A DNA stretch of 60,692 nt from positions 1 through 60,692 of the IMG/VR virus record IMGVR_UViG_3300010413_000032. One strand, given 5' to 3'. The stretch comes from a virus. Of the stretch, positions 8,223 to 20,600 are shown piece by piece; the stretch's first letter is position 1; every line of letters starts with the position of its first letter. A program made the position numbers and the translations under genes. The notes beneath the pieces are model-generated. The model was not told the DNA's origin. It saw nothing but the letters and a program-made list of their open reading frames with translations, and searched no databases.

Positions 8223-8238
8223 CGTATCCTCCTTTTCA

Positions 8239-8568: not shown

Positions 8569-8569
8569 A

Positions 8570-8878: not shown

Positions 8879-9119
8879 GGTCGCCTCCTTTTACCGGATA
8901 CCAAATTACGAAGTCAAAATCAACTTCACTCTGTGGAACCCAATCGGCCACAAGCCCGTATTCATCACAGTGTAATCCGTCTGCATACACAGCTAACCTA
9001 GAACCATCGCTAAACGCTATGACAATGCCTGCTTCGTGTCCTCTTTCGACGCCAAACTTAGTGACATGAACTTTATCCGGATCAATCTTCTCAAATGCTT
9101 CCTCAAGTAATGTTTTCAT
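8853..9119 (-). CDS. Unknown acidic protein, 88 aa
   Basis: ATG at 9119 with AGGTG four bases upstream. Acidic N-terminal helix then beta strands (GIVIAFSDGSRLAVYADG). Overlaps the next gene by 26 bases. Family not recognised. Confidence 0.7.
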   Translation of the reverse strand: MKTLLEEAFEKIDPDKVHVTKFGVERGHEAGIVIAFSDGSRLAVYADGLHCDEYGLVADWVPQSEVDFDFVIWYPVKGGDHEKSNLSA

Positions 9120-9126
9120 CTTTCAC

Positions 9127-9357
9127 CTATTTTGGATACTCGTTATAAGGTGCGCCACAATAAGGACATTTTACCTTGTCTTTTACCAAAAGAATGTCGC
9201 AATATTCACACCTTGCAACTCTAACTCGCACTTTCCCAGGTTCGTAGACAGGGTTGCCGAAATAGGTTATCCTCCTATCTGGAATATGGGAAGTCGATAC
9301 AGACCAATCACTTAAATAAGTATACGCCTGTGTTCCGTAATCATATCCTGCTACCAT
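9127..9357 (-). CDS. Zinc-ribbon protein, 76 aa
   Basis: ATG at 9357 with AGGAGG upstream. The C-terminal CEYC-x10-CPYC pair of C-x2-C knuckles forms a zinc ribbon. The N-terminal half is polar and aromatic. Binding target unknown. Confidence 0.75.
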   Translation of the reverse strand: MVAGYDYGTQAYTYLSDWSVSTSHIPDRRITYFGNPVYEPGKVRVRVARCEYCDILLVKDKVKCPYCGAPYNEYPK

Positions 9358-9370
9358 TATTCCTCCTAGG

Positions 9371-9442
9371 TCCTCCCGTGGGGATTCGAACCCCGTTCAT
9401 TCGGTTGAAAGCCGAATATCCTATCCAGTAGACGACGGGAGG
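9371..9442 (-). tRNA. tRNA-Glu (anticodon UUC)
   Basis: Acceptor CCTCCCG/CGGGAGG, discriminator A, D arm starting GTCTA, anticodon stem TTCGG/CCGAA with loop CTTTCAA, T loop TTCGAAT. Four bases separate it from tRNA-Gln, so both are probably cut from one transcript. Confidence 0.92.
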
Positions 9443-9446
9443 AAAA

Positions 9447-9517
9447 TTGGGGTGCAAGGATTCGAACCCTGATAAGTTGGTCCAAGGCCAACTGTCCTTC
9501 CGTTGAACGACACCCCA
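9447..9517 (-). tRNA. tRNA-Gln (anticodon UUG)
   Basis: Perfect acceptor TGGGGTG/CACCCCA with a U1-A72 pair typical of Gln, anticodon stem GTTGG/CCAAC with loop CCTTGGA, T loop TTCGAAT. No encoded CCA. Confidence 0.92.
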
Positions 9518-9524
9518 ACAGGCT

Positions 9525-9824
9525 TTACCAAAAAACCGTTACTAAGTAATTCCCAGGTTTAAGATGCTTGTCATGAACAAGCTTGTTTAGCAACTGCCTG
9601 GTAATTCCATGTCCAGAAACGTCACTGTCAAAGAAGTCTCTAAGATTCTCCACATCCCATCTATCAATGCTTCCATCAATCGTATAAAGATGCTGAGAGT
9701 CGTTAGACCACTCTTCGGCGGCAGCAAGTTCTACCCGCTTCCCGTAAATCTCCAAAATCGCCTTTTCCAAGACGTTGCATTCGATTACGACAACTGTTAA
9801 AATTGTACTTTTTATATTTGCCAT
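9525..9824 (-). CDS. Unknown protein, 99 aa
   Basis: ATG at 9824 with AGGAG about nine bases upstream. Alpha/beta with a hydrophobic N-terminal strand (ILTVVVIECNVLE) and the C-terminal strand NYLVTVFW. Four bases from the RNA ligase gene. Family not recognised. Confidence 0.7.
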   Translation of the reverse strand: MANIKSTILTVVVIECNVLEKAILEIYGKRVELAAAEEWSNDSQHLYTIDGSIDRWDVENLRDFFDSDVSGHGITRQLLNKLVHDKHLKPGNYLVTVFW

Positions 9825-9827
9825 AAT

Positions 9828-10868
9828 TCAGTCTCCTTTGTATAACAGGTTTATCACCTTGAAGCTAAGGCGTTGACCTTCAACGGACTGTTCGTAAATC
9901 GGCCTGACAACAATACCTTCTCGCTGAACGCCGCTATCATATTCTCCCTCAGCAAGCTTCCGCCAATCTTCATCGTCCATCTTATGGTTGTCTAGCGTGT
10001 GGAGGACTCTCACCATTGGCAGTCCATAATCGGTACAGAATCCATAAACCTCTGCTCCGTCAAGATACGTGCGCCTGTCAATGTCGTATATATCGAACAC
10101 GCGAATCTCATGGGTGTCCAGTTTTAACGGATTCTTTTGGATGCCAGGGCCAACTATTTCCATTTGGATAGCGTAGTTTTTACCAAGGTCTGTTAGCGTC
10201 TCCAGAATCTTGTACTTTATTGCCATCCTCCAATACACACCAATTTCAGTATCGCCCTTTAGATACTCTATGTTTCTGCTACATGCCCCAAGGTGATGAT
10301 CTCTTCGGTAAATCGTACAACTTATACCGTCATATTTCTCGGTCACATAGAACCAGTCCTGCGCTAGCATAGCGGCGACCAGTTTGGGTACTCGCTGGAA
10401 GTTAACTTCGTCTGTTTTTGGTACAAAGAGAGGGAAAGCGCCTGCTGCGATCCCTTGAAGTTGTGGCGATATTTGTTTTACATATTTTCTGACCCTACGA
10501 TATTCGGTTATATCGTTACCAACTTCGCCAACCATGTCTGGACCAAGCGGCAATACAAGGGCCTCAGAAGGAGTGCCACGCAAGCGAATCATCCTCACAC
10601 GATACTTGTACTTCTCCATAAAGTCAAATCTAGCATCATCTTCTGGTAAAATAGAATCCTGGAGATATATCTCGCAACGGTCGCCAATTCTAAACTCTCC
10701 GACTTGGGCAATAGCTCTCCATTTACCACCGCTCCCGCAGACGACTTCTATGCTCTCGATCCTGTCAGCATTCTTTATGGGTATTACATCCATAACCTTG
10801 CCGATGTAGGCCATGCCAGGAACAAGACCTTGGTCTTTCCAATCGTCCGGTATATCATTCTGTGTCAT
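9828..10868 (-). CDS. RNA ligase with N-terminal OB-like domain, 346 aa
   Basis: ATP-dependent RNA end joining through a lysyl-AMP intermediate. Nucleotidyltransferase motif I is EKYDG (residues 177-181, lysine 178), motif IV is EGIVVRP and motif V contains the lysine of SFKVINL near the C terminus. About 130 residues before motif I resemble an OB-fold (GMAYIGKVMDVIPI...), the layout of the Deinococcus DRB0094 (Rnl5-like) ligases rather than T4 Rnl1. ATG 10868 has GGAGG five bases upstream. Among so many tRNA genes its likely substrate is nicked tRNA, which is inference. Confidence 0.9.
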   Translation of the reverse strand: MTQNDIPDDWKDQGLVPGMAYIGKVMDVIPIKNADRIESIEVVCGSGGKWRAIAQVGEFRIGDRCEIYLQDSILPEDDARFDFMEKYKYRVRMIRLRGTPSEALVLPLGPDMVGEVGNDITEYRRVRKYVKQISPQLQGIAAGAFPLFVPKTDEVNFQRVPKLVAAMLAQDWFYVTEKYDGISCTIYRRDHHLGACSRNIEYLKGDTEIGVYWRMAIKYKILETLTDLGKNYAIQMEIVGPGIQKNPLKLDTHEIRVFDIYDIDRRTYLDGAEVYGFCTDYGLPMVRVLHTLDNHKMDDEDWRKLAEGEYDSGVQREGIVVRPIYEQSVEGQRLSFKVINLLYKGD

Positions 10869-10893
10869 GGCACCCTCCTTTATTTTCGATAAA

Positions 10894-10967
10894 TGGGCCT
10901 GCAAGGACTTGAACCTTGAACCTCTTCCTTGTAAGGGAAATGCTCTTCCAACTTGAGCTACAAGCCC
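10894..10967 (-). tRNA. tRNA-Val (anticodon UAC)
   Basis: Acceptor GGGCTTG/CAGGCCC, discriminator A, D arm GCTC/GAGC, anticodon stem TTTCC/GGAAG with loop CTTACAA, T loop TTCAAGT. No encoded CCA. Confidence 0.93.
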
Positions 10968-10973
10968 TCCTTG

Positions 10974-11393
10974 CTATTCCTCCCTACGAACTTTGAACTT
11001 TGCACCACTCTCGTCGTAGTAAAAGACTTCGTAATAGTCTATCCTTGCCCGAATGTCACGATACGTCACATCGTTAGGCCAGCAACTATCAAACCAGCCA
11101 GGGTGTTCATTCTCTTCGTATTCTTTTTTGCTATCTACATATACAAACACCCAAAAACCTGGAAGTGTGCTATAACCACCATCCCTACATATCCTGATCC
11201 GTTCGTTGTGCGAAAAGCTGTAGTATTTATCCATATACATATAAAAATCATCTAGCTTTTCCCTGTCACCGAATATCGACTCACTTGTGCGATGATCGGC
11301 ATCTCCATGTGTCCACGTAACAACAATTTCAAACACATCAATCGGGGGCTTTTTCGATACAACACTTTCAAGTTTTAGTCTGTCAAGATTCAT
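10974..11393 (-). CDS. Unknown protein, 139 aa
   Basis: ATG at 11393 follows the shifted-frame stop of the upstream gene by one base. Only a weak purine-rich RBS is present, so it is probably coupled. Acidic and aromatic-rich, alpha/beta (VFEIVVTWTHGD, FWVFVYVDSKKEY). Family not recognised. Confidence 0.7.
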   Translation of the reverse strand: MNLDRLKLESVVSKKPPIDVFEIVVTWTHGDADHRTSESIFGDREKLDDFYMYMDKYYSFSHNERIRICRDGGYSTLPGFWVFVYVDSKKEYEENEHPGWFDSCWPNDVTYRDIRARIDYYEVFYYDESGAKFKVRREE

Positions 11394-11394
11394 A

Positions 11395-11570
11395 TTACTT
11401 TCTCTTTCTGGATTCTACCTTTGTTAGCTTGCTGCCAAACTTCGACTCTATTTTGCCTGTTTGAGTATCTTTAAGCCTTCTGGCTTGAACCCCTTTACCT
11501 TTCCTCTGCTGCCGTCACTGCTATCTTCTACATCGTCGTTAATCCCAAAAAGCCAATTAAACAATCCCAT
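11395..11570 (-). CDS. Small protein with candidate -1 ribosomal frameshift
   Basis: ATG at 11570 (MGLFNWLFGINDD) has AAGGA eight bases upstream. The zero frame stops at 11448 after 40 aa. The slippery heptamer A-AAG-GGG is in phase at 11496-11490. A -1 slip there continues into a lysine/arginine-rich extension (VQARRLKDTQTGKIES...) whose TAA (11397-11395) ends one base before the next gene. A purine-rich, SD-like stretch (AGAGGA) lies just upstream of the heptamer, as in the dnaX frameshift cassette. A simple frameshift mutation or sequencing error in the G run is the alternative. Confidence 0.6.
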
Positions 11571-11581
11571 TTGTATATTCC

Positions 11582-11899
11582 TTATGTTTTAATAACAACG
11601 CCACTTCTACCCTTTTCATAGGGCATCCACCGCGCTTGTTCTTTACCATACCTAAGCGATGCGCCAAACCTAGACTTCCTTGTAAGGAACCTGATCGGGC
11701 CACCGTCCGGTGGTCTAAATTCGCGCCTGCCGATGTCTGTATAACCAAGAATATCAATCAAGTATCTCCTGTAGCACCGATAAGCCTGACTGTGATTCTG
11801 GTGAATCTTTGGACTTGCACCACGCAGCATCGCATTTACTGTAGCGTTTCCTCCAGAGCAATATTCTTTTGGTGTTCCGCACATCACAACTCTAGGCAT
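11582..11899 (-). CDS. Unknown basic protein, 105 aa
   Basis: ATG at 11899 (MPRVVMCGTP) with AGGAG eight bases upstream. Very basic with many Arg and Tyr (YRCYRRYLIDILGY, FLTRKSRFGASLRYGK), suggesting nucleic acid or ribosome binding, which is inference. No known family. Confidence 0.7.
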   Translation of the reverse strand: MPRVVMCGTPKEYCSGGNATVNAMLRGASPKIHQNHSQAYRCYRRYLIDILGYTDIGRREFRPPDGGPIRFLTRKSRFGASLRYGKEQARWMPYEKGRSGVVIKT

Positions 11900-11901
11900 A
11901 A

Positions 11902-12123
11902 TTACCACTCCTGTTCTATTGTCGGTGAGGATATAATATCTTCAAGCGTATATCCAGCAGGGCAGTTTAAGGTGTTGCTATAAACCGTCTTGCATGAAAG
12001 ACGGTAAGAACCCCACCAATAATTTACCGTTTTACAACAAAGCAATTCATAGTCTGCGCAACTTGTGACAAACAATGCGACAACGATCAATGCAACCAAT
12101 AGAAAGGCCGTGCGAGTTTTCAT
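11902..12123 (-). CDS. Small cysteine-rich lipoprotein-like protein, 73 aa
   Basis: ATG at 12123 (MKTRTAFLLVALIVVALF) with GGGAGG five bases upstream. Lipoprotein signal with lipobox VTSC. The mature start DYELLCCKTV resembles EYEIVCCKQW of the gene at 14654-14857, so the two are relatives. Envelope location predicted; function unknown. Confidence 0.72.
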   Translation of the reverse strand: MKTRTAFLLVALIVVALFVTSCADYELLCCKTVNYWWGSYRLSCKTVYSNTLNCPAGYTLEDIISSPTIEQEW

Positions 12124-12150
12124 CTTTACCTCCCCCTTAATCAGTGATTG

Positions 12151-12224
12151 TGCGACGGGACAGATTTGAACTGCCGACGCTGTGATCTTCAATCACACGC
12201 TCTACCAGACTGAGCTACCGCCGC
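12151..12224 (-). tRNA. tRNA-Phe (anticodon GAA)
   Basis: Acceptor GCGGCGG/CCGTCGC, discriminator A, D arm GCTC/GAGC, perfect anticodon stem TGTGA/TCACA with loop TTGAAGA, T loop TTCAAAT. A 7-bp hairpin (12257-12273) lies between it and tRNA-Ser, possibly a processing signal. Confidence 0.93.
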
Positions 12225-12272
12225 TTGCAAATTCGCGGTCGGCCAGTTTCGATTGAGCCTAATGCTATTAGG

Positions 12273-12361
12273 CAGAGGGAGAGGGATTCGAACCCCCGAA
12301 CCCCTTGCGGGGCTTGCGGTTTTCAAGACCGCCGCGATCAGCCAGACTCCGCCATCCCCCT
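12273..12361 (-). tRNA. tRNA-Ser (anticodon UGA)
   Basis: Class II: acceptor AGGGGGA/TCCCTCT, discriminator G, anticodon stem GCGGT/ACCGC with loop CTTGAAA, long variable arm CCCC/GGGG, T loop TTCGAAT. Its 5' 24 bases also encode the C terminus of the sulfotransferase-like gene. Confidence 0.93.
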
Positions 12362-13024
12362 AAATATATTCTTGAATTGATCCTCAAGATATGCGCTTGC
12401 GAGTGATAGATTGTCCTCCAATTCCCAATGCGCGAGACTTGGCTTTACTGCACTGTAAGCCTCCTGTTTTGGAGTCACTCCCAAGAAGCTCGCTACAGAG
12501 TCAACCACTTCATTTGTTTTAGAAATAAGGTCAATATATCTTATCGACATCACATTCTCAAGGTTAACCGTATTTTCTATCATCTTTGCGAGATACCTAA
12601 TAGTTATCATAAAGGCGATCTCAAATGGTATTTTGTTTCTTTTTGCTAAAGATTTTGCCGAATTGAATGGGTCACGATAAATCGTAATCGTCTTCATGTC
12701 TGGAGCCGCCTTTATTAAAAGGGGGAGGCAATAACACAACCTTGGGTCTTTTATCGCCCATAAATCCTTCCAGACAAACGGGCCTAGTAAAACTTTGTAC
12801 TCCGCGAGATATTTATCTGCCTGATTCATAGACGGGAGTCTCCAATTGCCACCAATAACCTTGTCGTGGAAATCAACAATCTTCTTTTCTTCGTAATACC
12901 CTTCTGGATTGTGCTTGCTAGGTGGCAGAAGATTATCCCCCATGTATGCACCCAATCCATGCACAACTTTCGCAAGTGCAGATGTACCCCCTCTGTGAAC
13001 TCCAACAACCGCGACTCCGCTCAT
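12338..13024 (-). CDS. Sulfotransferase-like protein, 228 aa
   Basis: N-terminal P-loop-like VGVHRGGTSALAKV (residues 7-20) matches the PAPS 5'-phosphosulfate-binding motif. YRDPFNSAKSLAKRN in the middle fits the 3'-phosphate-binding motif of sulfotransferases. A sulfate donor reaction on an unknown acceptor is inferred. ATG 13024 forms an ATGA overlap with the upstream gene and has GGAG seven bases upstream. The end (GMAESG plus TGA) is read from the 5' half of tRNA-Ser. A related domain occurs at 52272-53729. Confidence 0.8.
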   Translation of the reverse strand: MSGVAVVGVHRGGTSALAKVVHGLGAYMGDNLLPPSKHNPEGYYEEKKIVDFHDKVIGGNWRLPSMNQADKYLAEYKVLLGPFVWKDLWAIKDPRLCYCLPLLIKAAPDMKTITIYRDPFNSAKSLAKRNKIPFEIAFMITIRYLAKMIENTVNLENVMSIRYIDLISKTNEVVDSVASFLGVTPKQEAYSAVKPSLAHWELEDNLSLASAYLEDQFKNIFRGMAESG

Positions 13025-13266
13025 TTGCCAGCTCCAGTCCAATTCTTTATATAGGCTATTGCCTTATCTACAACCTCTCCCTTGAAGGAGCCGTAAAAAT
13101 ATAGACCCACTTTTTCGCCCTCATCGTCTATAACGATTCCCCAATAAGTTCCGTTAAACTTAAAATAAATCTTCCCGTTACTGTATTTTACACTAATATA
13201 GTCTGGGAAACTAATGTTTCTAACAGCCTCTATTTTATCAATCAATTCTTCTGTAAGGTGAATCAT
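13021..13266 (-). CDS. Unknown protein, 81 aa
   Basis: ATG at 13266 with AGGAG seven bases upstream. Beta-rich centre (ISVKYSNGKIYFKFNGTYWG) flanked by helices. Overlaps the sulfotransferase-like gene by four bases, so co-translated with it. Family not recognised. Confidence 0.72.
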   Translation of the reverse strand: MIHLTEELIDKIEAVRNISFPDYISVKYSNGKIYFKFNGTYWGIVIDDEGEKVGLYFYGSFKGEVVDKAIAYIKNWTGAGK

Positions 13267-13281
13267 TGTATGTCTCCTTTA

Positions 13282-13355
13282 AGCGGGTTGCGGGATTCGA
13301 ACCCGCGACACGAAGCTTGGAAGGCTACTGCTCTACCAGTCTGAGCTAAACCCGC
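13282..13355 (-). tRNA. tRNA-Gly (anticodon UCC)
   Basis: Perfect acceptor GCGGGTT/AACCCGC, D arm GCTC/GAGC, anticodon stem GTAGC/GCTTC with one U-U mismatch and loop CTTCCAA, T loop TTCGAAT. Discriminator U. Five bases from tRNA-Asn. Confidence 0.92.
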
Positions 13356-13359
13356 ACTA

Positions 13360-13432
13360 CTCGGACGGGTGGAGTTGAACCACCACACTTCGCATTAACA
13401 GTGCGATGCTCTGCCAATTGAGCTACGTCCGA
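13360..13432 (-). tRNA. tRNA-Asn (anticodon GUU)
   Basis: Perfect acceptor TCGGACG/CGTCCGA, discriminator G, anticodon stem TCGCA/TGCGA with loop CTGTTAA, T loop TTCAACT. Positions 8-10 (TAG) are the stop of the gene at 13423. Confidence 0.94.
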
Positions 13433-13653
13433 CTGAATTCCATCTTTCCCCATGTTAAAGGCCATGCGATAAGCTTGATATTCTGTCTGTGGCCGATATG
13501 GCAAATAGCGGTAACTTCCATCGTGTAACCGTTCCGCAGTTTTGCCATTTCCGTCATTGTTATTGGTATGAACATTGTCCCATCGTCACAATGCCCACAA
13601 CTTACCGCATTCACTCCAGGGCTTACAACAACACGTTCTCTCTTTTTAGGCAT
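13423..13653 (-). CDS. Unknown protein, 76 aa
   Basis: ATG at 13653 (MPKKRERVVVSPG) with GGAGG five bases upstream. One C-x2-C (CGHC) plus a later CHIGH might bind metal. The C terminus FSRT and the TAG stop are read from the first ten bases of tRNA-Asn. No recognised family. Confidence 0.72.
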   Translation of the reverse strand: MPKKRERVVVSPGVNAVSCGHCDDGTMFIPITMTEMAKLRNGYTMEVTAICHIGHRQNIKLIAWPLTWGKMEFSRT

Positions 13654-14068
13654 TCCCGCCTCCATCATACACTTTAATTGCAATCATGTTTTGCCTTGCG
13701 TCGAATGTATACAGTCCATAAAATCCGCCGTTTTTCTTGTCAACGGTCACAGTACCAACAATTATTGCCCCAAGGAGATCTAGAAGGTGCCGCTGTGTCA
13801 TCCTGAACTCCTTGCGTCCATCATCAACATCTTCAAACAAGACACTACCAGACTCACTTGCAGAAGCCCACGCATAAGGAACCAATGTTGCAGTAAATGT
13901 GAAATTTGGCACAACCTTGCAAGGCGATCCGAATACGTCTTCGTAAAATGCTTCTAGTTCAGGGACGGACATTTCTCCTGCCTTGCTAAATGGTACATTC
14001 CAAATGTGACCGTCTTCGGAAAAACCTATTAGTATATTTGAAGCCTCATTTCTACCTATAATTTGCAT
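13646..14068 (-). CDS. Unknown protein, 140 aa
   Basis: ATG at 14068 (MQIIGRNEASN) with GGAGG five bases upstream. Beta-rich soluble protein. It overlaps the next gene by eight bases. Family not recognised. Confidence 0.72.
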   Translation of the reverse strand: MQIIGRNEASNILIGFSEDGHIWNVPFSKAGEMSVPELEAFYEDVFGSPCKVVPNFTFTATLVPYAWASASESGSVLFEDVDDGRKEFRMTQRHLLDLLGAIIVGTVTVDKKNGGFYGLYTFDARQNMIAIKVYDGGGNA

Positions 14069-14082
14069 ATCGTCCTCCAGGT

Positions 14083-14153
14083 CGGGGGTCGTGGATTTGA
14101 ACCACGGCTGCACGGTCCCAAACCGCGCGTTCTACCTGACTAGACTAACCCCC
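14083..14153 (-). tRNA. tRNA-Pro (anticodon UGG)
   Basis: Acceptor GGGGGTT/GACCCCC, anticodon stem CGCGG/CCGTG with loop TTTGGGA, T loop TTCAAAT. Discriminator G is unusual for Pro. The last conventional tRNA before the aberrant cluster. Confidence 0.9.
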
Positions 14154-14162
14154 GATAAAGAT

Positions 14163-14247
14163 CGGCTACGTTCATCCACGGCAGGAATCGAACCTGTTCC
14201 AATTACAGGATGAGTATAATTGGTTACGCCAGTTATCCGACATAGCC
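14163..14247 (-). tRNA. Aberrant tRNA-like RNA (CAU in loop)
   Basis: Outer stem GGCTATG/CGTAGCC acts as acceptor and is extended by four more pairs (GATC on both sides, 14160-14251). A TTCGATT T loop sits in a CAGG/CCTG stem. The anticodon arm is far too long (nine pairs, CCAATTATA/TGTAATTGG) with loop CTCATCC, and ten extra bases separate the T arm from the acceptor. It is not a normal tRNA. It may be a degenerate tRNA or a specialised mimic. Confidence 0.6.
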
Positions 14248-14253
14248 GATCAG

Positions 14254-14333
14254 AACGGGTGATTGGGATCGAACCAATGTCGCCGTGAAACCCTTCACGA
14301 AGGGGGCGACCTATCCTCTATTTTAGCACCCGT
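14254..14333 (-). tRNA. Aberrant tRNA-Glu-like RNA with inserted hairpin in the anticodon loop
   Basis: Perfect acceptor ACGGGTG/CACCCGT and T arm ATTGG/CCAAT with loop TTCGATC. The anticodon stem TCGCC/GGCGA encloses a 20-base loop. Deleting the 13-base self-complementary piece CCTTCGTGAAGGG leaves CTTTCAC, the normal Glu(UUC) loop. The variable region is only one base. A normal tRNA-Glu(UUC) exists at 9371-9442, so this copy is redundant for decoding. Confidence 0.65.
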
Positions 14334-14337
14334 TGGA

Positions 14338-14358
14338 GGCCCTGGTACGAGCAGGGCC
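14338..14358 (-). other. Seven-pair hairpin with seven-base loop
   Basis: GGCCCTG/CAGGGCC stem with loop CTCGTAC, just upstream (transcription-wise) of the Glu-like element. No T run follows, so it is not an obvious terminator. It resembles a free-standing anticodon arm; a processing signal is another option. Confidence 0.55.
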
Positions 14359-14361
14359 TTT

Positions 14362-14426
14362 GGTTGAACAATAAGCGTTATTTGTGTGATGGCGGAGACA
14401 GCGCTTCTCCTACTTATTCCTCAACC
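14362..14426 (-). other. Structured spacer element between tRNA-like genes
   Basis: Ends GGTTGA and TCAACC are complementary, the next inner segments AATAAG/CTTATT pair as well, and a GGAGA/TCTCC hairpin with a seven-base loop lies inside. The overall shape recalls a tRNA acceptor with arms, but there is no T loop. No ORF with an RBS. Function unknown. Confidence 0.5.
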
Positions 14427-14429
14427 TAA

Positions 14430-14513
14430 AAGTGGGTGGTGGAATTGAACCACCGAAGAGATTGCTCTCCCTAGGTTATCCCCTAGTGCCTTTGTCCTCT
14501 AGGCTACCCCACT
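14430..14513 (-). tRNA. Aberrant class II tRNA-like RNA with six-base anticodon loop
   Basis: Acceptor AGTGGGG/ACCCACT has one G-A mismatch at 7-66. D arm GCC/GGC, variable arm GAGA/TCTC with loop GCAA, T arm GGTGG/CCACC are intact. The anticodon stem CTAGG/CCTAG closes a six-base loop GGATAA lacking U33. Clearly homologous to the tRNA at 14570-14654. The anticodon cannot be assigned. Confidence 0.65.
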
Positions 14514-14515
14514 TC

Positions 14516-14566
14516 GGTAAGGTTATTCGCTTCTCGAAGCTGCTTGGGCTTAGAATCACCTTTACC
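14516..14566 (-). other. Structured inverted-repeat spacer element
   Basis: GGTAAGGT at one end pairs with ACCTTTACC at the other (one bulge), with an inner ATTC/GAAT pairing and a GCTT/AAGC hairpin. It fills the gap between two class II tRNA-like genes. Possible processing signal; function unknown. Confidence 0.45.
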
Positions 14567-14569
14567 TAA

Positions 14570-14654
14570 TAGCGGGAGGCGGATTTGAACCGCCGAAGGG
14601 ATTTCTCCCGCAAGGTTATGAGCCTTGTGCCGTTAACCACTAGGCAATCCCGCT
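14570..14654 (-). tRNA. Class II tRNA with CAU anticodon
   Basis: All arms are intact: acceptor AGCGGGA/TCCCGCT, discriminator A, D arm GCC/GGC, anticodon stem CAAGG/CCTTG with loop CTCATAA, long variable arm GGGA/TCCC with GAAA loop, T arm GGCGG/CCGCC. Long variable arms belong to Ser, Leu, Tyr and Sec tRNAs, none of which has CAU. Charging identity is therefore unclear (Leu-like by A73 and arm, Met or Ile2 by anticodon). Confidence 0.85.
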
Positions 14655-14857
14655 TAATACTTGTCAGGCCACTTCAAGATAGTGTCAACTGTCCATTCAA
14701 CTCCGCTACAAGTGGGTGCATGAACAGTCTTGCACACCTTCGGCGTACATACGCCGTTTTCGTGACACCATTGTTTGCAACAGACAATTTCGTATTCACC
14801 TGCACACGCACTTATCAGAAACGCGATAAGTAACAATACAATAACCCACTTTTTCAT
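14654..14857 (-). CDS. Small cysteine-rich lipoprotein-like protein, 67 aa
   Basis: ATG at 14857 (MKKWVIVLLLIAFL) with GGAGG six bases upstream. Lipobox ISAC, then a cysteine-rich mature chain (EYEIVCCKQWC, VCTPKVCKTV). Relative of 11902-12123. The stop shares one base with the 5' end of the class II tRNA(CAU). Confidence 0.72.
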   Translation of the reverse strand: MKKWVIVLLLIAFLISACAGEYEIVCCKQWCHENGVCTPKVCKTVHAPTCSGVEWTVDTILKWPDKY

Positions 14858-14858
14858 A

Positions 14859-15221
14859 TCACACCTCCGGTTCGTCAATTGGCATCACAGAAAGATATAT
14901 GTTATTTTTTGCATACGGCGAATCAGGCGATAACATCCAACGTGTCTCTGCCTCTATAACTGTGCTTTTAACATATCCAAAATGAAGGTGTGTCCACTCC
15001 TGTCCGTCAATTTTCTGCGTTGTCGTTCTAAGGTATTGGCATTTGAGGCCAGGGCCACCAGAGAACCCCCACATAAGAGTTTCTACCCATTGTCCAGGAA
15101 CAAGTGTAAAGTTTACATCGTTCCACGCATTAAAAACCTCAGCAATCTCTGGATGAAACACCTTTACCCATTCCAACAAGTTGTCTGGATAATATCCACC
15201 TGACCAATTATCGTCACTCAT
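14859..15221 (-). CDS. Unknown protein, 120 aa
   Basis: ATG at 15221 with AGGAGG upstream. Tryptophan-rich soluble protein (WSGGYYPDNLLEWVKVFHP). No motif recognised. Confidence 0.72.
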   Translation of the reverse strand: MSDDNWSGGYYPDNLLEWVKVFHPEIAEVFNAWNDVNFTLVPGQWVETLMWGFSGGPGLKCQYLRTTTQKIDGQEWTHLHFGYVKSTVIEAETRWMLSPDSPYAKNNIYLSVMPIDEPEV

Positions 15222-15247
15222 TGTACACCTCCTTAATTGTGTGTGTG

Positions 15248-15320
15248 CGGAGGCTACGGGAATCGAACCCGTGGCTCCTGCTCGACAGGCAGGTATGTTG
15301 GACCACTACACCAAGCCTCC
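15248..15320 (-). tRNA. tRNA-Asp (anticodon GUC)
   Basis: Perfect acceptor GGAGGCT/AGCCTCC, discriminator G as expected for Asp, anticodon stem CCTGC/GCAGG with loop CTGTCGA, T loop TTCGATT. Confidence 0.94.
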
Positions 15321-15328
15321 ATTACTAT

Positions 15329-15688
15329 TTACCAATTAACACAGCTAAGAACTGGATATTGATTGCACCTGATAAATACACACTCCACAATACGCAGGCC
15401 AGATTTGTAACGTGTCCTCCTTGCACTACAATCAAGTGTTGGATTGCTTATACTCTCCCATGTGACATTTTCTGTGGCTTCTCTTGCCGCTGCCCTATAC
15501 AGCTTTGCCATTTCAGCGTCAGTGTTATATCCTGAGTAATCGTATTCGACTATCTCTCCAACTGGCATTGGTGTTTGTTCAACCACTGTCTCTTGTGGCG
15601 TCCCACAACCAGAAAGCACGATGATTATAAGGATGGTTATAACAAACCACATTAGGAACCCAAATCCTTTTATTTCAAAGTCTCTCAT
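15329..15688 (-). CDS. Lipoprotein, 119 aa
   Basis: ATG at 15688 with AGGAGG upstream. N-terminal hydrophobic segment ends in lipobox LSGC at about residues 25-28. The mature region is polar with four Cys near the C terminus (LDC, VEC, IRC, LSC), which may form disulfides outside the membrane. Function unknown. Confidence 0.75.
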   Translation of the reverse strand: MRDFEIKGFGFLMWFVITILIIIVLSGCGTPQETVVEQTPMPVGEIVEYDYSGYNTDAEMAKLYRAAAREATENVTWESISNPTLDCSARRTRYKSGLRIVECVFIRCNQYPVLSCVNW

Positions 15689-15700
15689 GTTAGCCTCCTG

Positions 15701-15970
15701 TTACTTACAACTACTTGTTGAATACTGCCCACAGTCTACAAGGAAACAGTTCGCGTAACTGTCTCCGCATTTAAGTGTGTATGTGGTACAACCTGGCAGT
15801 TGAAGATAGCTATTTGTTGCTTGCCATGCACAGTCTTCTGTTATCCGTGACGTGTTGTTGTACTCTTCCGGTAGCGGTCCGCAGCCATTCAATAGAAAAA
15901 CAAACACGACTGACACCACGATAATTATAATTGTGATTGGTATGTATCTAGTCACTTTCTTTATTGTCAT
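15701..15970 (-). CDS. Lipoprotein, 89 aa
   Basis: ATG at 15970 (MTIKKVTRYIPITIIIIVV) with GGAGG six bases upstream. Lipobox LNGC, then a mature chain with regularly spaced Cys ending SSCK. Similar size and C-terminal Cys pattern to the neighbour at 15329-15688. Overlaps the upstream gene by 23 bases. Confidence 0.75.
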   Translation of the reverse strand: MTIKKVTRYIPITIIIIVVSVVFVFLLNGCGPLPEEYNNTSRITEDCAWQATNSYLQLPGCTTYTLKCGDSYANCFLVDCGQYSTSSCK

Positions 15971-16238
15971 TGTCACCCTCCTCCAAAGGCACTTCCCACG
16001 GCAGGACGACTTCCTCCTCCCAAGGCAATTGCCTTTCAAAAAATGCTTCAAATAGCTCAAGTGCTATATGGTATACTACCAAATCGCCAACCATCCTACA
16101 TTCAGAATGGTGCATATGTTCAGGGCAATCATCTAACTTGGCAAACTCTACAGCTTCGTCTAAGATTTGATTGTACAACTCAGCTATATCCTGCCCTCTT
16201 GCGTCTATGGCCCTGTGTACAGCTTCTCTTATGTCCAT
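15948..16238 (-). CDS. Unknown acidic protein, 96 aa (paralogue of 16444-16680)
   Basis: ATG at 16238 (MDIREAVHRAI) with a GGGGG RBS. Helical and acidic, with IAELYNQILDEAVEFAKL and HHSECRMVGDLVVYHIALELFEAF. The same order (EALYGEIMQYVIE, SSQECMQIGDLIIHHFMMEVF) occurs in 16444-16680. The conserved His/Cys/Asp could bind metal, but this is a guess. Confidence 0.72.
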   Translation of the reverse strand: MDIREAVHRAIDARGQDIAELYNQILDEAVEFAKLDDCPEHMHHSECRMVGDLVVYHIALELFEAFFERQLPWEEEVVLPWEVPLEEGDNDNKESD

Positions 16239-16246
16239 ATAACCCC

Positions 16247-16441
16247 CTATAGGAAAATTATCCAAATCCAAAACGGAAGTGTCGTTATAAGCAGCACAAT
16301 TATTGCCACAGCTAGCAACATTAAGACAACAATGCTTCCAACAGTGTAAATCACAAACAAGAATATGTTTATGATAAAACCTATAATACCTCCGTTTTGG
16401 ACAAATGGATAACTACCCCACCTGCCCCAAAACCAAATCAT
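16247..16441 (-). CDS. Membrane protein, 64 aa
   Basis: ATG at 16441 with AAGGA six bases upstream. Mostly hydrophobic, about two transmembrane helices (residues 18-38 and 40-62). Lies between the two paralogous acidic genes. Function unknown. Confidence 0.7.
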   Translation of the reverse strand: MIWFWGRWGSYPFVQNGGIIGFIINIFLFVIYTVGSIVVLMLLAVAIIVLLITTLPFWIWIIFL

Positions 16442-16443
16442 CT

Positions 16444-16680
16444 TTATTCCTTCCAGTCAAACTGCCAGTTAAACCAGTCCAAGAAGACCTCCATCATAAA
16501 GTGATGGATAATAAGGTCTCCGATTTGCATACACTCTTGAGACGAACGCGACTCTATGCACGGATTGTCCTCTTCTCCAAGCTTTTCAATCACGTATTGC
16601 ATTATCTCTCCATACAGAGCTTCAACGGCTGGCCCATATGCGCTGACTGCTTCGATTACGGGTGTCCTCAAGTCTTTCAT
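16444..16680 (-). CDS. Unknown acidic protein, 78 aa (paralogue of 15948-16238)
   Basis: ATG at 16680 with AGGAGG upstream. Shares the helical core and the ECMQIGDLIIHHF motif with its paralogue two genes away; the intervening membrane gene may be a partner. Function unknown. Confidence 0.72.
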   Translation of the reverse strand: MKDLRTPVIEAVSAYGPAVEALYGEIMQYVIEKLGEEDNPCIESRSSQECMQIGDLIIHHFMMEVFLDWFNWQFDWKE

Positions 16681-16693
16681 GTTCGCCTCCTTG

Positions 16694-16766
16694 TCCGCGC
16701 AGCAGGAATTGAACCTGCGACTCGCGGATTAAAAGTCCGCTACTCTTCCAACTGAGTTATGCGCGG
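16694..16766 (-). tRNA. tRNA-Lys (anticodon UUU)
   Basis: Perfect acceptor CCGCGCA/TGCGCGG, discriminator A, D arm ACTC/GAGT, anticodon stem GCGGA/TCCGC with loop CTTTTAA, T loop TTCAATT. Its first 27 bases are also coding sequence of the gene at 16740. Confidence 0.94.
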
Positions 16767-17063
16767 CTGTTCTTGATCTTCCGCCTCTTTTGCAGCTATG
16801 GCCGCTTTGGCCTTTTCTAGCTTGTCAAGTGCAAATCTAATTGTCTTTTCGACAAAGGCGTCGTCTTCTGACATAAAATAGACTCCGATTAGGAACATTA
16901 CATGCGATGGTACAAAAGCTTCGTCGTCATCGCCGTCCGGAAGCGCCAGTTTTGCCGCATCTGGCGCTAAGACTAGAGCAGCCTCATTAGGAAGCAGCTC
17001 AATCGTTGTAACTTCTTGCGTGTCTAACAAAACTCCACCCTCTAAGTCTTTTGTTGCCGACAT
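16740..17063 (-). CDS. Unknown acidic protein, 107 aa
   Basis: ATG at 17063 (MSATKDLEGG) with GGAG seven bases upstream. Acidic, with a C-terminal Ala/Lys/Glu-rich helix (KAKAAIAAKEAEDQ). The last nine codons (from QPRITQLEE) run through the acceptor and D arm of tRNA-Lys, ending at TAG inside GAGTAG. Function unknown. Confidence 0.72.
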   Translation of the reverse strand: MSATKDLEGGVLLDTQEVTTIELLPNEAALVLAPDAAKLALPDGDDDEAFVPSHVMFLIGVYFMSEDDAFVEKTIRFALDKLEKAKAAIAAKEAEDQEQPRITQLEE

Positions 17064-17064
17064 T

Positions 17065-17253
17065 TTACTTCTCCAAATAAACTTGGACAAGGTACTCTTC
17101 AAAGCACCCAAGCCCATAATATACGACAAAGGTTCTGCCGCCAGAAATCTTTACATGCGAATAATTAAAGTCGTGAAACCGATTGCACTTTGCACAATAC
17201 AAATTCCTTACAGGAACTTGATCTTTAACTCTTACCATCTGCCTTTTGTCCAT
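17065..17253 (-). CDS. Small zinc-finger-like protein, 62 aa
   Basis: ATG at 17253 with AGGAG upstream. NLYCAKCNRFHDF has a C-x2-C knuckle with a nearby His, and a further Cys lies near the C terminus (GLGCFEEY). Possible zinc site. Basic N terminus. Function unknown. Confidence 0.7.
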   Translation of the reverse strand: MDKRQMVRVKDQVPVRNLYCAKCNRFHDFNYSHVKISGGRTFVVYYGLGCFEEYLVQVYLEK

Positions 17254-17266
17254 AATATACTCCTTA

Positions 17267-17340
17267 TGGGTGCGGGAGGATTCGAACCTCCACTATGTCG
17301 GACTTGACGCGACTGCCTCTGCCGATTGCGCTACGCACCC
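17267..17340 (-). tRNA. tRNA-Leu-like (anticodon CAA), short variable region
   Basis: Perfect acceptor GGGTGCG/CGCACCC, discriminator A, D arm with GGCAGAGGC, T arm GGAGG/CCTCC with loop TTCGAAT. The anticodon stem GTCGC/CCGAC has a C-C mismatch; loop GTCAAGT gives CAA. The variable region is only about five bases, whereas bacterial Leu tRNAs normally have a long arm. Positions 8-10 are the stop codon of the gene at 17331. Confidence 0.8.
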
Positions 17341-17834
17341 TTTTTGTGAAGCTCTTTATTCCAATCTGCCAAAGCATCAAGTACCCCTTTCCTGACCTCT
17401 ACCATAATTGCCGTAGCGGCGTCTCCGGTACAACCGTTGAACTTTTCCATAAAATTGTCAGCAAACTCTATTTTCGTAGTAACGGTTGTATACGGACCAT
17501 CTGGATTCGGCTCTATCGTTACCTTGATCTTCGACTGCAATTTCATTTTGCCTGCCGCCTTGTCATTATTTACACTGTATACATGAAATGGACTATTATC
17601 TGGAGTCCAGCCAAACGACGACGACGACGACGAAGATGCTTCGTGTGAATATGTCCAAGACTCGGCTCCAACACCAGTAGTCCAATATTTGATTGGAGGA
17701 ACCTTTATCTCATAAAACACTGGCGCTTCATGGTTTTGCTTATTAACATACTCTTCCATAGTCTTTTTGGCCGTCTCAAGTGCCTCATCAAAGGCTGCAG
17801 AACTTCCAGAGATTTTCATATTCATTTTCACCAT
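17331..17834 (-). CDS. Unknown protein, 167 aa
   Basis: ATG at 17834 (MVKMNMKISGSS) with AAGGA seven bases upstream. A seven-serine run lies in the middle (EASSSSSSSFGW). The C-terminal region looks alpha/beta (TVTTKIEFADNFMEKFNGC). The end KKGA plus TAG is encoded by the first ten bases of tRNA-Leu(CAA). Family not recognised. Confidence 0.72.
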   Translation of the reverse strand: MVKMNMKISGSSAAFDEALETAKKTMEEYVNKQNHEAPVFYEIKVPPIKYWTTGVGAESWTYSHEASSSSSSSFGWTPDNSPFHVYSVNNDKAAGKMKLQSKIKVTIEPNPDGPYTTVTTKIEFADNFMEKFNGCTGDAATAIMVEVRKGVLDALADWNKELHKKGA

Positions 17835-17867
17835 AGCATATTCCTTGATGCGTGATTGCCAAACAGG

Positions 17868-17942
17868 TAGGAGCAGGAGGATTCGAACCTCCACTGTTCA
17901 GGGTCTAAACCTGTTGCCTCTGCCAAGTTGGGCTACACTCCC
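17868..17942 (-). tRNA. tRNA-Leu-like (anticodon UAG), short variable region
   Basis: Acceptor GGGAGTG/TGCTCCT with several G-U pairs, discriminator A, D arm with GGCAGAGGC, loop TTTAGAC giving UAG (reads CUA/CUN), T arm GGAGG/CCTCC. Again no long variable arm. It would not read UAG stop codons, which need CUA. Confidence 0.82.
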
Positions 17943-17945
17943 GTA

Positions 17946-18242
17946 CTATACAATTCTCCATCTATATTCCCCCGCCTCCCTTTTGACTTGGTACAGCGGG
18001 AAACATTCTAGGGTTGAATAAATATAAACCCACCCTTCGTAATGGTTGCCTTTTCTGATGTCAACATAGGTCCAAAAGGTTCCATCGGATACACGCTCCA
18101 AAACCACGTCTCTTGTTTCAAAGCCGCCTTGTCTTGATACCCAAGGGGTAGATTCGACAAACCTGAATTCGTATCCGGCAGTAACACCCTCATGAATGCA
18201 CGTTTGGAACTGCACATCGTTTTTTACTATTATCTTATTCAT
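17946..18242 (-). CDS. Unknown protein, 98 aa
   Basis: Two ATGs in tandem; the second (18242) is five bases from GGAGG and is preferred. Beta-rich (YEFRFVESTPW, DVVLERVSDGTFWTYVDI). No known family. Confidence 0.7.
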   Translation of the reverse strand: MNKIIVKNDVQFQTCIHEGVTAGYEFRFVESTPWVSRQGGFETRDVVLERVSDGTFWTYVDIRKGNHYEGWVYIYSTLECFPLYQVKREAGEYRWRIV

Positions 18243-18257
18243 CATTACCTCCTTTAG

Positions 18258-18348
18258 TGGGCGGGGCAGGAGTCGAACCTGCGATGTTTACCCTGCGGGA
18301 TCGGTTTTACAGACCGACGCTACACAACCAACAGTAGACCTCCCGCCC
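18258..18348 (-). tRNA. tRNA-Tyr (anticodon GUA)
   Basis: Class II: perfect acceptor GGGCGGG/CCCGCCC, discriminator A, anticodon stem TCGGT/ACCGA with loop CTGTAAA, long variable arm, T arm GCAGG/CCTGC. The D arm is longer than usual. Confidence 0.92.
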
Positions 18349-18573
18349 TTAATCTTCAGCGCGGACATTCCACAATGTTAATGCCTCACTTATGCTAAGG
18401 CGTGACGGACCCTCTGCTCCACACGTACTGCAATACACACTATACACATACGGTATGTTTTTTGTGGAACCGTACCTGTTTAGCTCGAAGTCAATCTCCC
18501 CGCAAAACGGACAGACGCGAAGCTCAATTTTCCTATGCGCGGCTGGTATGTCTACAATCTTTGTACGCTCCAT
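18349..18573 (-). CDS. Lar-like zinc protein, 74 aa
   Basis: ATG at 18573 (MERTKIVDIP) with GGAG seven bases upstream. RVCPFCGEIDFEL, then YCSTCGAEGPSR and SISEALTLWN, match the layout of the Lar (restriction alleviation) family: two C-x2-C-G knuckles followed by an EA-x-x-x-WN helix. In phages such proteins are often annotated as Lar-like; anti-restriction activity is not shown. First gene after the structured non-coding region. Confidence 0.72.
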   Translation of the reverse strand: MERTKIVDIPAAHRKIELRVCPFCGEIDFELNRYGSTKNIPYVYSVYCSTCGAEGPSRLSISEALTLWNVRAED

Positions 18574-18880
18574 AACCATACTCCTCTCATTACGCTCTAG
18601 GTTGGACGCTACCCCAACTCCAGGCTTGGCAGTCAGAAGAGGCCGCTACTCTCCCCCCTAGTAACACCACGCTACTTATCATGAATTTTCGCGTGATGCC
18701 GAGTGACGTTCACCTGGGCTAAGACTATATCCATGTGTCTGCGACTTTCCACATCGCTAGAGATTTTTACATTCCCGCCCGATGGGGGACAGCGGGATTG
18801 GTTCCCCGCCATCCCCCATCTTCGTGCGTTCTCCAGTTAAGCAGAGCCTAACTTAAAGTACCCCTATTCGGAAGGGGAGG
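18574..18880 (-). ncRNA. Hairpin-rich non-coding transcript region
   Basis: No ORF with an RBS in about 300 bases. Read leftward it contains CCCC/GGGG, AGTTA/TAACT, a strong two-part hairpin at 18781-18820 (GATGGGGGA/TCCCCCATC then GCGGG/CCCGC), ATGTG/CACAT, CATCACGC/GCGTGGTG, and a terminal multi-branched part closed by CTAGG/CCTAG. Transcribed with tRNA-Trp from the promoter at 18972-19000. It could be a long leader of the Lar-like gene or a free small RNA. Confidence 0.5.
18781..18820 (-). other. Strong two-part hairpin
   Basis: Nine pairs (GATGGGGGA/TCCCCCATC), a symmetrical TG/TG internal loop, five pairs (GCGGG/CCCGC) and an eight-base loop. No T run follows on either strand, so it is structural or regulatory rather than a plain terminator. 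Confidence 0.7.
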
Positions 18881-18952
18881 CAGGGGTATGAGGACTCGAA
18901 CCCCAATTCGCGGTGTTGGAGACCGCTGTCCTTCCAATTGGACGATACCCCT
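18881..18952 (-). tRNA. tRNA-Trp (anticodon CCA)
   Basis: Perfect acceptor AGGGGTA/TACCCCT, discriminator G, anticodon stem GCGGT/ACCGC with loop CTCCAAC, T loop TTCGAGT. First product of the transcript from the promoter just upstream. Confidence 0.94.
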
Positions 18953-19003: not shown

Positions 19004-19162
19004 TTATTCGGACAATATCAACGCTCTGATTTTATGCAGCTTGTCAGAAGCGGTGGTGTTGTATTCCCGAATGATGTCTTCTATAAGAGCCAGCGTACCT
19101 AAGTTTACCGTTTCGGTAAAGCTGTCTATTAGACCTTGTGCCTCATATTCATCAAGTTCCAT
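19004..19162 (-). CDS. Unknown small helical protein, 52 aa (start uncertain)
   Basis: ATG at 19162 (MELDEYEAQGLI) overlaps the CCA-adding enzyme gene by 11 bases. An alternative ATG at 19225 has AGGAG nine bases upstream but would overlap by 74 bases. Acidic, helical (LGTLALIEDIIREY). It contains the promoter-proximal end before tRNA-Trp. Function unknown. Confidence 0.55.
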   Translation of the reverse strand: MELDEYEAQGLIDSFTETVNLGTLALIEDIIREYNTTASDKLHKIRALILSE

Positions 19163-20600
19163 TGGCCAACTTGGCACCTTCCCGTTCGGTAAAGATGTTT
19201 GTCTTTTTGATATTGATCGCTTCATTTAACAGTACTCCTGACTTGTTTTCGATCTTTCCTTCTATCACTCCGTGCAGTAATACATTTAGTATTTCGCCAA
19301 CTTCCTTGCCCTCTTCAATCGCAAGGGCCTCCATTATGTCGTGTCCGTTAACTGCCAGGTCTGTAACCCTGAATACGGATTTCGCGTCAATCTCTGCATT
19401 TACAAGATTGAGTGCATAATTTTCTATCTTGAGAAGTTCTTTGCTTTGATCCTTGCCGTTAACGCCAAGGTCCTTCTTTACATCGGCAAAGCGTGTTAGA
19501 AAGACAAATGCCATACGTCTCTTAAGCTCTTCCGTTGAGTTATTCCCGCCGAGATCAATCTTGCTCAAAAACCTACGTGCGGCTGCTGGAGAATCAACTG
19601 TATACATATGATACCTAACCGAAAGCCAGATAAGCCTACGAATATCCTCTGGCAATCGCAGCCGACTGGTGATTATTTCCGAAATATCAGCACCAGCCTG
19701 CTCATGCTGGTAAAAGGTAGCCCCGTATTCGCGGCTTTTGTACTGCCTAACAACTGGCTTCCCAATATCATGCAGTAAAACTGCAAGTTTATTGTTGGCC
19801 TTGTAGCCCAACTCATCAGCTTTCGCCATACACCTTAGAGTGTGCATCCACACGTCTTCAAAGTCGTGGTGTACATTCTGAGTTACGCCATTTAGTGCAT
19901 ATACTTCTGGCAAGATTACCTCTAGAAGCCCAAGGTGCTTTAGTGTCAGTATATACTTCATTGATATAGGAGACTCAAGCCCCTTCATAAACTCCTTACC
20001 AATTGCATCCCAGGACTCCCTTGCGATAAGGATTCTATACTTGGTAATAGCTTCGATCAGATCGGGTTCGATAGTATACATGCTGTCGAGAGACGTGGCG
20101 AATCTTACATATCTCATCATTCTAATTGGGTGAGCCTTGATTCTCTTTACCGGATCGCCGATTGCACGGATTCTTCGCTTTGCAATATCATTACGACCTT
20201 CAAATGGATCAATTATGTTTCCATCATGATCCATAGCTATTGCATTTATAGTCATATCTCTCCTTGCCAAGTCTTCTGTTAGGTCGCTTGTAAAGCTAAA
20301 CTTTACAGGCTTCCCGTCAACATAATCGGCGTCAGATTCCTGTCTCATTGTGACGACTTCTACAAAGTCACCCTTCTCTATCGAAGGAACGTTAACTGAC
20401 ACAGAGAATGCAGCACTTATGATCGAAGAGCCGTCAAACAAGTCGAGAATCTCTTTAGGAGTAGCACTTGTTACAACGTCGTAATCCTTGATCGGAAGCC
20501 CAAGATACGCATCCCTAACAGCGCCTCCAACAAGATACGCCTGATGTCCAGCGTCAATCAGCTTCTTCATTATATCCCTGTACGACAAACCTTCGCCCAT
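19152..20600 (-). CDS. cca: CCA-adding enzyme (tRNA nucleotidyltransferase), 482 aa
   Basis: Adds the 3' CCA to tRNAs. Class II nucleotidyltransferase core: YLVGGAVRDAYLGL (about 22-35) and metal-binding DYD (39-41), then the RRDMTINAIA and RIKAHPIRMMRYVRFA motifs. An HD domain (LAVLLHDIGK) follows around residue 265. Most of the 20-plus tRNA genes here lack an encoded CCA, so this enzyme would let the phage mature them independently of host capacity. ATG 20600 has GAGG seven bases upstream. Confidence 0.94.
   Translation of the reverse strand: MGEGLSYRDIMKKLIDAGHQAYLVGGAVRDAYLGLPIKDYDVVTSATPKEILDLFDGSSIISAAFSVSVNVPSIEKGDFVEVVTMRQESDADYVDGKPVKFSFTSDLTEDLARRDMTINAIAMDHDGNIIDPFEGRNDIAKRRIRAIGDPVKRIKAHPIRMMRYVRFATSLDSMYTIEPDLIEAITKYRILIARESWDAIGKEFMKGLESPISMKYILTLKHLGLLEVILPEVYALNGVTQNVHHDFEDVWMHTLRCMAKADELGYKANNKLAVLLHDIGKPVVRQYKSREYGATFYQHEQAGADISEIITSRLRLPEDIRRLIWLSVRYHMYTVDSPAAARRFLSKIDLGGNNSTEELKRRMAFVFLTRFADVKKDLGVNGKDQSKELLKIENYALNLVNAEIDAKSVFRVTDLAVNGHDIMEALAIEEGKEVGEILNVLLHGVIEGKIENKSGVLLNEAINIKKTNIFTEREGAKLANGT

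Follow-up and report, generated by a model that had tools for sequence, protein, structure and literature searches.

What are the members of a phage tRNA array that look like tRNAs without being canonical ones, and do they serve translation? The programs commonly used to annotate such arrays list canonical tRNAs only. The question is raised here by four tRNA-like elements (E1 to E4) in an IMG/VR virus record of 60.7 kb, which was analysed at its full length and is referred to as the window. Its phage genes are of bacterial type and include RecA, a gpA-like terminase, a CCA-adding enzyme and an RNA ligase with a PHA02142 OB-fold domain (Pfam). No close named phage was found for the window, the only matches of its capsid protein being Leptospira phages (22%). 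ARAGORN found 25 tRNA genes, 25 of 25 on the minus strand and mostly between 1.6 and 19 kb, which cover all amino acids but Cys. Nearly all of them lack an encoded CCA, which is present in one tRNA-Ala (38867-38943); this fits with the phage having its own CCA-adding enzyme. The enzyme is expected to complete these tRNAs, most of them CCA-less, and probably acts on E1 to E4 as well, and for the RNA ligase a role in RNA repair is possible. The relevant genes are:

1664-18952 and 37167-38943, minus strand: the 25 tRNA genes called by ARAGORN
9828-10904, minus strand: RNA ligase with PHA02142 OB-fold domain (Pfam RNA_ligase 2e-25, PHA02142 6e-11)
14080-14154, minus strand: normal tRNA-Pro(UGG), directly downstream of E1 in the same array (ARAGORN, Rfam)
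19152-20615, minus strand: CCA-adding enzyme (Pfam PolyA_pol 9e-28, HD, tRNA_NucTran2_2)

A first-pass annotation of this DNA had placed four tRNA-like elements within 14160-14654, and all four are located there, on the minus strand. Its account of them holds for their number and for the loops of E1, E3 and E4, but not for the size of the E2 insert, the intactness of the E1 T arm or the restriction of the changes to the anticodon arms; it had also overlooked three structured modules that lie between the elements (G2, G1a and G1b). In the direction of transcription, that is from 14654 down to 14160 and on to the tRNA-Pro, the order is as follows, with the parts of E2 and E1 given after the element to which they belong:

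14570-14654, minus strand: E4, class II tRNA with anticodon CAU and loop CUCAUAA (ARAGORN, Rfam; fold z -3.6)
14516-14566, minus strand: G2, hairpin module between E4 and E3 in which the E4 trailer pairs with the E3 leader (closed domain in the 505-base fold; z -1.9 alone, which is weak)
14429-14514, minus strand: E3, paralogue of E4 with the 6-base anticodon loop GGAUAA (ARAGORN, structure-based alignment; fold z -4.1)
14362-14426, minus strand: G1a, 7+7-pair helix with one G.G mismatch around a 5-pair hairpin with a 7-base loop (closed domain, z -3.2)
14337-14359, minus strand: G1b, free-standing 8-pair hairpin with the 7-base loop CUCGUAC (closed domain, z -3.5)
14254-14334, minus strand: E2, tRNA-like RNA (descriptor match uncalled by ARAGORN; fold z -2.6)
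14279-14310, minus strand: arm of E2 at the anticodon position, GTCGCC/GGCGAC, its 20-base loop holding the hairpin CCCTTCGTGAAGGG at 14291-14304 (sequence, fold)
14160-14251, minus strand: E1, tRNA-like RNA with the 11-pair closing helix GATCGGCTATG/CGTAGCCGATC (fold z -3.9)
14199-14223, minus strand: 9-pair arm of E1 with the 7-base loop CUCAUCC (fold)
14182-14196, minus strand: 4-pair T arm of E1 (fold)
14171-14181, minus strand: 11-base insert of E1 between the T arm and the 11-pair acceptor helix (fold)

Folding of the RNAfold type, which had been suggested as a check, demonstrates structure beyond chance: the 505-base strand reaches -186.3 kcal/mol on folding (z = -4.67), and none of 100 shuffles folded as well. 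The fold consists of seven closed domains with few bases between neighbours. The z values of the single modules given above, to which -4.3 for G1 is to be added, stand beside a mean of about -2 for the window's normal tRNAs and of -0.4 for the background, in which 2.3% of the 90-base windows lie below -3.5, so that a thermodynamic z alone is weak evidence.

Scoring with tRNA models, likewise suggested before, gave a divided result. ARAGORN called E4 as tRNA-Met(CAT) and E3 as tRNA-??? with a two-letter anticodon, but left E1 and E2 uncalled. E4 was the only one of the four to pass the RF00005 gathering threshold (53.7 against 29 bits); E3 gave nothing but a sub-threshold tRNA-Sec match in Rfam (28.3 bits against 47), and for E1 and E2 there was no Rfam tRNA match up to E = 10. 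A 7-base anticodon loop with U33 on an ordinary stem is found in E4 only: the loop of E3 has 6 bases and no U33, E2 has no such loop, and E1 has U33 but C37, C38 and a 9-pair stem. The long variable arm with its own stem that marks class II is present in E4 (GGGA/TCCC) and E3 (GAGA/TCTC) and absent from E2 and E1. Acceptor and T stems have 7 and 5 pairs in E4, 7 and 5 in E3 (8 and 5 if A-1:U73 pairs), 8 and 5 in E2, and 11 and 4 with the 11-base insert in E1. E1, E2 and E3 most likely do not decode.

The loop of the G1b hairpin has U and A at the positions of U33 and A37, as in a CGU anticodon loop, a likeness by shape only. G1b was also considered as a terminator and rejected: no T-run follows the hairpin, and the terminator scan was empty on that strand.

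E4 is the class II tRNA with CAU that had been described, with A73, a 7-pair acceptor stem, a 5-pair T stem, a long variable arm and no encoded CCA, and it looks like a working tRNA that serves translation. Its isotype could be either Met or, after lysidine modification, Ile2. Its acceptor carries G2-C71, C3-G70 and A73, but A1-U72 too, a pair listed as an antideterminant against MetRS in the context of E. coli tRNA-Trp (PMC9976931). An Ile2 tRNA would be useful, since AUA makes up 35% of the sampled Ile codons.

Searching viral contigs for a D-arm plus T-arm pattern drawn from E3 and E4 gave 57 matching stretches. These comprise Ser tRNAs, as expected, and class II tRNAs with Thr, Trp, Lys, Asn, Gln, Met/Ile, His, Gly and other anticodons. 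By inspection, several of those with class I anticodons keep the acceptor features of the isotype (G1-C72 and C2-G71 in Thr; A1-U72 with G73 in Trp). They occur in many IMG/VR contigs and have the D arm GCCTAGNGG..GGC, a long variable arm and a 7-base loop. In both sequence and fold E4 is one of them and thus belongs to a recurrent phage type; E3 shares the frame but has a 6-base loop, and E1 and E2 are not of this type. Class II phage tRNAs with anticodons of class I amino acids were seen in L095, L096, L098, L100-L102, L109, L114, L122, L128, L129, L133, L135, L149 and others, and in L035, L042 and L057.

E3 and E4 are paralogues. They are 74% identical in a structure-based alignment, and their local alignment score is 81, compared with a shuffled maximum of 32. 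Five of their 24 stem pairs differ; four of these have changed on both sides and still pair, and one (7-66) is broken. When the ten stem substitutions were placed at random in simulations, at least four compensated pairs arose with P of about 6e-5, and at most one broken pair with P = 8e-5. The compensated changes imply that selection acted on the cloverleaf of E3 during most of its history after the split from E4. In the anticodon loop, by comparison, three of seven positions have changed; one base is deleted and U33 is gone, which leaves the 6-base loop that had been reported. Further oddities are the G.A mismatch at 7-66 and a U73 able to pair with A-1. Because of the six-base loop without U33, E3 can probably not decode. 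The earlier claim that stems were preserved while the decoding part was altered finds its strongest case here, with four compensated pairs and a wrecked loop; it does not fit E4, which has the appearance of a working tRNA, and fits E1 and E2 only in part, where the whole core has changed. Even for E3 the pattern of kept stems and altered loop is equally compatible with the recent loss of a working tRNA.

E2 was found with a descriptor that consists of an intact T arm, followed immediately by an acceptor strand that is paired 30-140 bases upstream. There were 33 matches uncalled by ARAGORN, E2 among them, 554 others that overlap ARAGORN tRNAs, and none in reversed sequences. As drawn, E2 has an 8-pair acceptor, a 3-pair D-like arm, a long 6-pair arm with a nested 5-pair hairpin and a 5-pair T arm; they meet in a four-way junction with zero unpaired linker bases, and both the 8-9 linker and the variable loop are absent. 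The hairpin inserted at the anticodon position does exist, yet its length is 14 bases (CCCTT-CGTG-AAGGG, within the 20-base loop closed by the 6-pair stem) and not 13, and the alternative pairing GTGAA/TTCAC competes with it. When 1.34 Mb of phage DNA, a large share of it tRNA-rich, was searched with the covariance model R2, built for E2, only the window itself and weak matches of up to 29.4 bits came up, at least one of these matches being an ordinary tRNA from the window. E2 as the window's missing tRNA-Cys (U73) was ruled out, as it contains no GCA.

E1 has the nine-pair anticodon stem that had been noticed, and its loop keeps U33 and CAU, but with C37 and C38 where A is usual. The acceptor and T arms had been called recognisable; the paired ends and the T-loop motif are indeed found in E1 and E2, but the T arm of E1 has only 4 pairs and is split from the acceptor by 11 bases, and the minimum-energy fold puts its T-loop bases into another hairpin. 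The model for E1 (R3) matched the window itself only in the same 1.34 Mb. The abnormality is thus not confined to the anticodon arms: E2 is also missing linker and variable loop, and the core of E1 is rebuilt as well.

The whole cluster is 100% identical in an overlapping contig (IMGVR_UViG_3300009509_000014, 73.9 kb), which is identical to the window over 18.4 kb, cluster included. This argues against an assembly slip, though both records may share reads. The extra 25 kb of that contig contain no further tRNA. Searches for relatives with the cluster, done with the CCA enzyme (single and aligned sequences), RNA ligase, terminase, RecA and capsid protein, yielded this one identical contig; other relatives stop short. 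The next relatives (contigs G003-G006) have terminases of 69-86% identity and share parts of the RecA, terminase and capsid neighbourhood without reaching the cluster; in G004 the contig end lies just outside the tRNA array. No relatives by capsid protein were found in cellular genomes, and the cluster DNA gave no match over more than 12% of its length with named phages (E-values 0.1 to 0.5).

Irregular tRNAs are not peculiar to this window. Five of the 33 uncalled descriptor elements share one design: a 3-pair D-stem-like helix encloses the anticodon arm, which has 4-5 pairs and a 7-base loop with U33, and a D-loop-like TA..GG stretch comes after that helix. The model R1, built from these five, gave the nested group 51-95 bits and canonical tRNAs at most 37, and the group is present in at least 11 viral contigs. 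The places noted for the class as a whole are:

L115, 5881-5956, plus strand: nested-class member
L124, 1466-1541 and 1373-1449, minus strand: two nested-class members
L100, 4-80, plus strand: nested-class member
L126, 6702-6777, plus strand: nested-class member
L131, 2801-2879, minus strand: nested-class member
L135, 2815-2891, minus strand: nested-class member
L163-L167, 1501-1579: nested-class members
L177-L191: nested-class members
L192, 2495-2571, plus strand: nested-class member

In cellular genome contigs, a pattern scan added over a dozen places that R1 matches strongly, mostly among other tRNA genes, one of them in Achromobacter anxifer. In 19 sequences, 98.3% of the pair cells are paired (36-49% in slid controls), and both sides have changed in 17 of 19 pairs. 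The anticodons are those of Ile (UAU, GAU), Val (UAC) and Arg (UCU, ACG, CCG), together with CAU. Blast matches fall in Streptomyces phages; in phage Coruscant (MT711976, about 73025-73101) the element overlaps the annotated start of an FtsK-like gene and is unannotated as a tRNA. ARAGORN misses the class, the Rfam tRNA model passes its threshold on two of the members tested, and no description of it was found in the open-access text searched. The covariation suggests that the nested architecture is a recurrent tRNA class of phage-type arrays that standard tools miss. E1 and E2 were rejected as members by R1, with 15.3 bits for E2 and only a 15-base T-arm fragment at 10.1 bits for E1. On L115, at 4713-4771 on the plus strand, there is also a 59-base tRNA-like element with a perfect acceptor and T arm, apparently without a D arm. 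Further irregular tRNA-like clusters with intact acceptor and T arms, uncalled by ARAGORN, lie at 3256-5216 of L061, 5944-7812 of L111 and 2049-2727 of L116.

What, then, is the cluster? The best explanation, to which we assign a probability of about 0.4, is one working tRNA together with maintained, non-decoding tRNA-derived RNAs; this figure, like the weights of the other readings, is a judgement. The stretch would be a tandem array of tRNA-derived RNA modules inside a phage tRNA operon, in which E4 works in translation as a class II CAU tRNA. E3 would come from the same class II stock, its cloverleaf having been held by compensatory change before decoding was lost through the one-base deletion and the loss of U33. 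E1 and E2 would be further tRNA-derived RNAs with rebuilt cores, which with G1a, G1b and G2 complete the seven closed domains. The paired ends and T-arm motifs would let RNase P and RNase Z cut the modules out, the phage's own CCA-adding enzyme could finish them, and the matured modules might then engage tRNA-binding enzymes outside translation, as a mimic or a sink. Alternatively the modules could be structured spacers that shape the processing of the array. The anatomy, the paralogy of E3 and E4, the compensation in E3 and the structure beyond chance are demonstrated, transcription, processing and every function of the modules are inferred, and the balance leans towards the non-decoding modules being kept for their structure.

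For a maintained array we count the compensation in E3, the z of -4.67 of the whole strand, the score of E4, the recurrence of its class II type, and the presence of a CCA-adding enzyme and an RNA ligase. Against it we count that the comparison of the locus is with an identical contig only, that E1 and E2 are without homologue in the 1.34 Mb, and that the broken 7-66 pair and lost U33 of E3 are also expected from recent decay. A bolder version seems rather doubtful to us: the phage would devote this locus to non-decoding tRNA mimics (E1-E3) in tandem, with hairpins, which would mature through the tRNA machinery and the phage-encoded CCA-adding enzyme and, during infection, occupy or distract host enzymes that cut or modify tRNAs.

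It is quite possible, if less probable, that E3, E2 and E1 are pseudo-tRNAs, remnants of duplication and recombination in a tRNA array that is fluid, E3 being recently dead, E1 and E2 recombinants and the spacer hairpins incidental. One deletion and one point change suffice to kill E3, in which the 7-66 pairing has already gone; no other element is similar to E1 or E2, neither of which agrees with any tRNA model, and prokaryotic annotation often includes tRNA genes that are partial and non-canonical (PMC9897764). The sequences here are likewise non-canonical. However, integration leaves one-sided fragments, whereas E2 and E3 keep both acceptor strands and the T arm, and the stem changes of E3 are compensated. 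A decaying tRNA would also not be expected to gain the long, near-perfect helices of E1, G1a and G1b, which we regard as gained and not merely retained because their z values are below -3 and they are longer than tRNA helices. Finally, about 500 bases of dead DNA would be unusual in an otherwise tightly packed phage region. Because helices were gained in E1, G1a and G1b and kept in E3, maintained RNAs are favoured over relics.

The first-pass annotation had proposed decoys. In the strict sense, E1-E3 would titrate a specific host anticodon nuclease, toxin or tRNA-modifying enzyme; this overlaps with the maintained-array reading, and as a separate proposal we consider it unlikely. E3 has kept its stems with an altered decoding loop, many host defences cut tRNA anticodon loops (PMC10264068, PMC11555353), and the phage's own genes include an almost full set of tRNAs besides the CCA-adding enzyme and the RNA ligase. 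On the other side, E4 is a plain tRNA, and the counter-defence by phage tRNAs that has been described consists in the supply of usable or cleavage-resistant tRNAs, not of decoys (PMC10264068, PMC11555353). The known route of T5 against retron-Eco7 depends on a usable tRNA: protection was lost once the anticodon or the stem loops of the phage tRNA that confers it were altered (PMC11555353). The phage tRNAs for which resistance to anticodon nucleases is proposed (van den Berg et al. 2023, PMC10264068) or that defeat retron-Eco7 or PrrC170 (PMC11555353) likewise come from large arrays, and some have altered anticodon loops; otherwise they are normal and decode, whereas E1-E3 are probably non-decoding and the cores of E1 and E2 are rebuilt. 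The nested class, moreover, keeps every decoding feature, so irregularity alone is no argument for decoys.

That class also lends something to the view that E3, E1 and perhaps E2 are unusual but decoding tRNAs, which would read codons, cause programmed frameshifts or resist host anticodon nucleases by loop variants: it is irregular and yet has U33, correct anticodons and covarying stems. Nuclease-resistant anticodon loops have been proposed for phage tRNAs (PMC10264068), and E1 retains U33 and CAU. This view is nevertheless quite improbable, given that E3 lacks U33, E1 has C37 and C38, E2 has no 7-base anticodon loop, and neither the tRNA model nor R1 accommodates E1 or E2. That E2 is an intron-containing tRNA whose anticodon-position hairpin is spliced out is very hard to credit in spite of the 14-base hairpin and the phage-encoded RNA ligase, since ARAGORN with introns of 0-120 bases allowed gave no intron-bearing tRNA in E2 or E1 at its default score, the bacterial-type genes (RecA) speak against a host with archaeal-type splicing, and E2 would not make a plausible tRNA even after excision, as it lacks the linker and the variable loop.

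Soil metatranscriptomes contain allo-tRNAs and polycistrons of irregular tRNA-like sequences, some of which were unusable in E. coli translation (Mukai et al. 2017, as reviewed in PMC7609411); a link of such clusters to transposons or toxin-antitoxin systems is a hypothesis only (PMC7609411). The locus described here is similar in its clustered, irregular tRNA-like RNAs with non-standard arm lengths. It differs in being phage-borne, and E1-E4 do not have the 12-pair acceptor domain of allo-tRNAs (8/4 or 9/3 in acceptor and T stem).

Phages probably have a wider range of tRNAs than annotation shows. The locus shows that arrays can hold a cloverleaf that was maintained, with a disabled decoding loop, next to tRNA-like RNAs with rebuilt cores, and a tRNA-shaped RNA that is not for translation becomes a proposal that can be tested.

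Outside the array, two long proteins of the window (54903-56717 and 57037-59232, plus strand) consist mostly of short tandem repeats of the type ADAxIxKSxxQSVxADA; they are probably virion or adhesion proteins.
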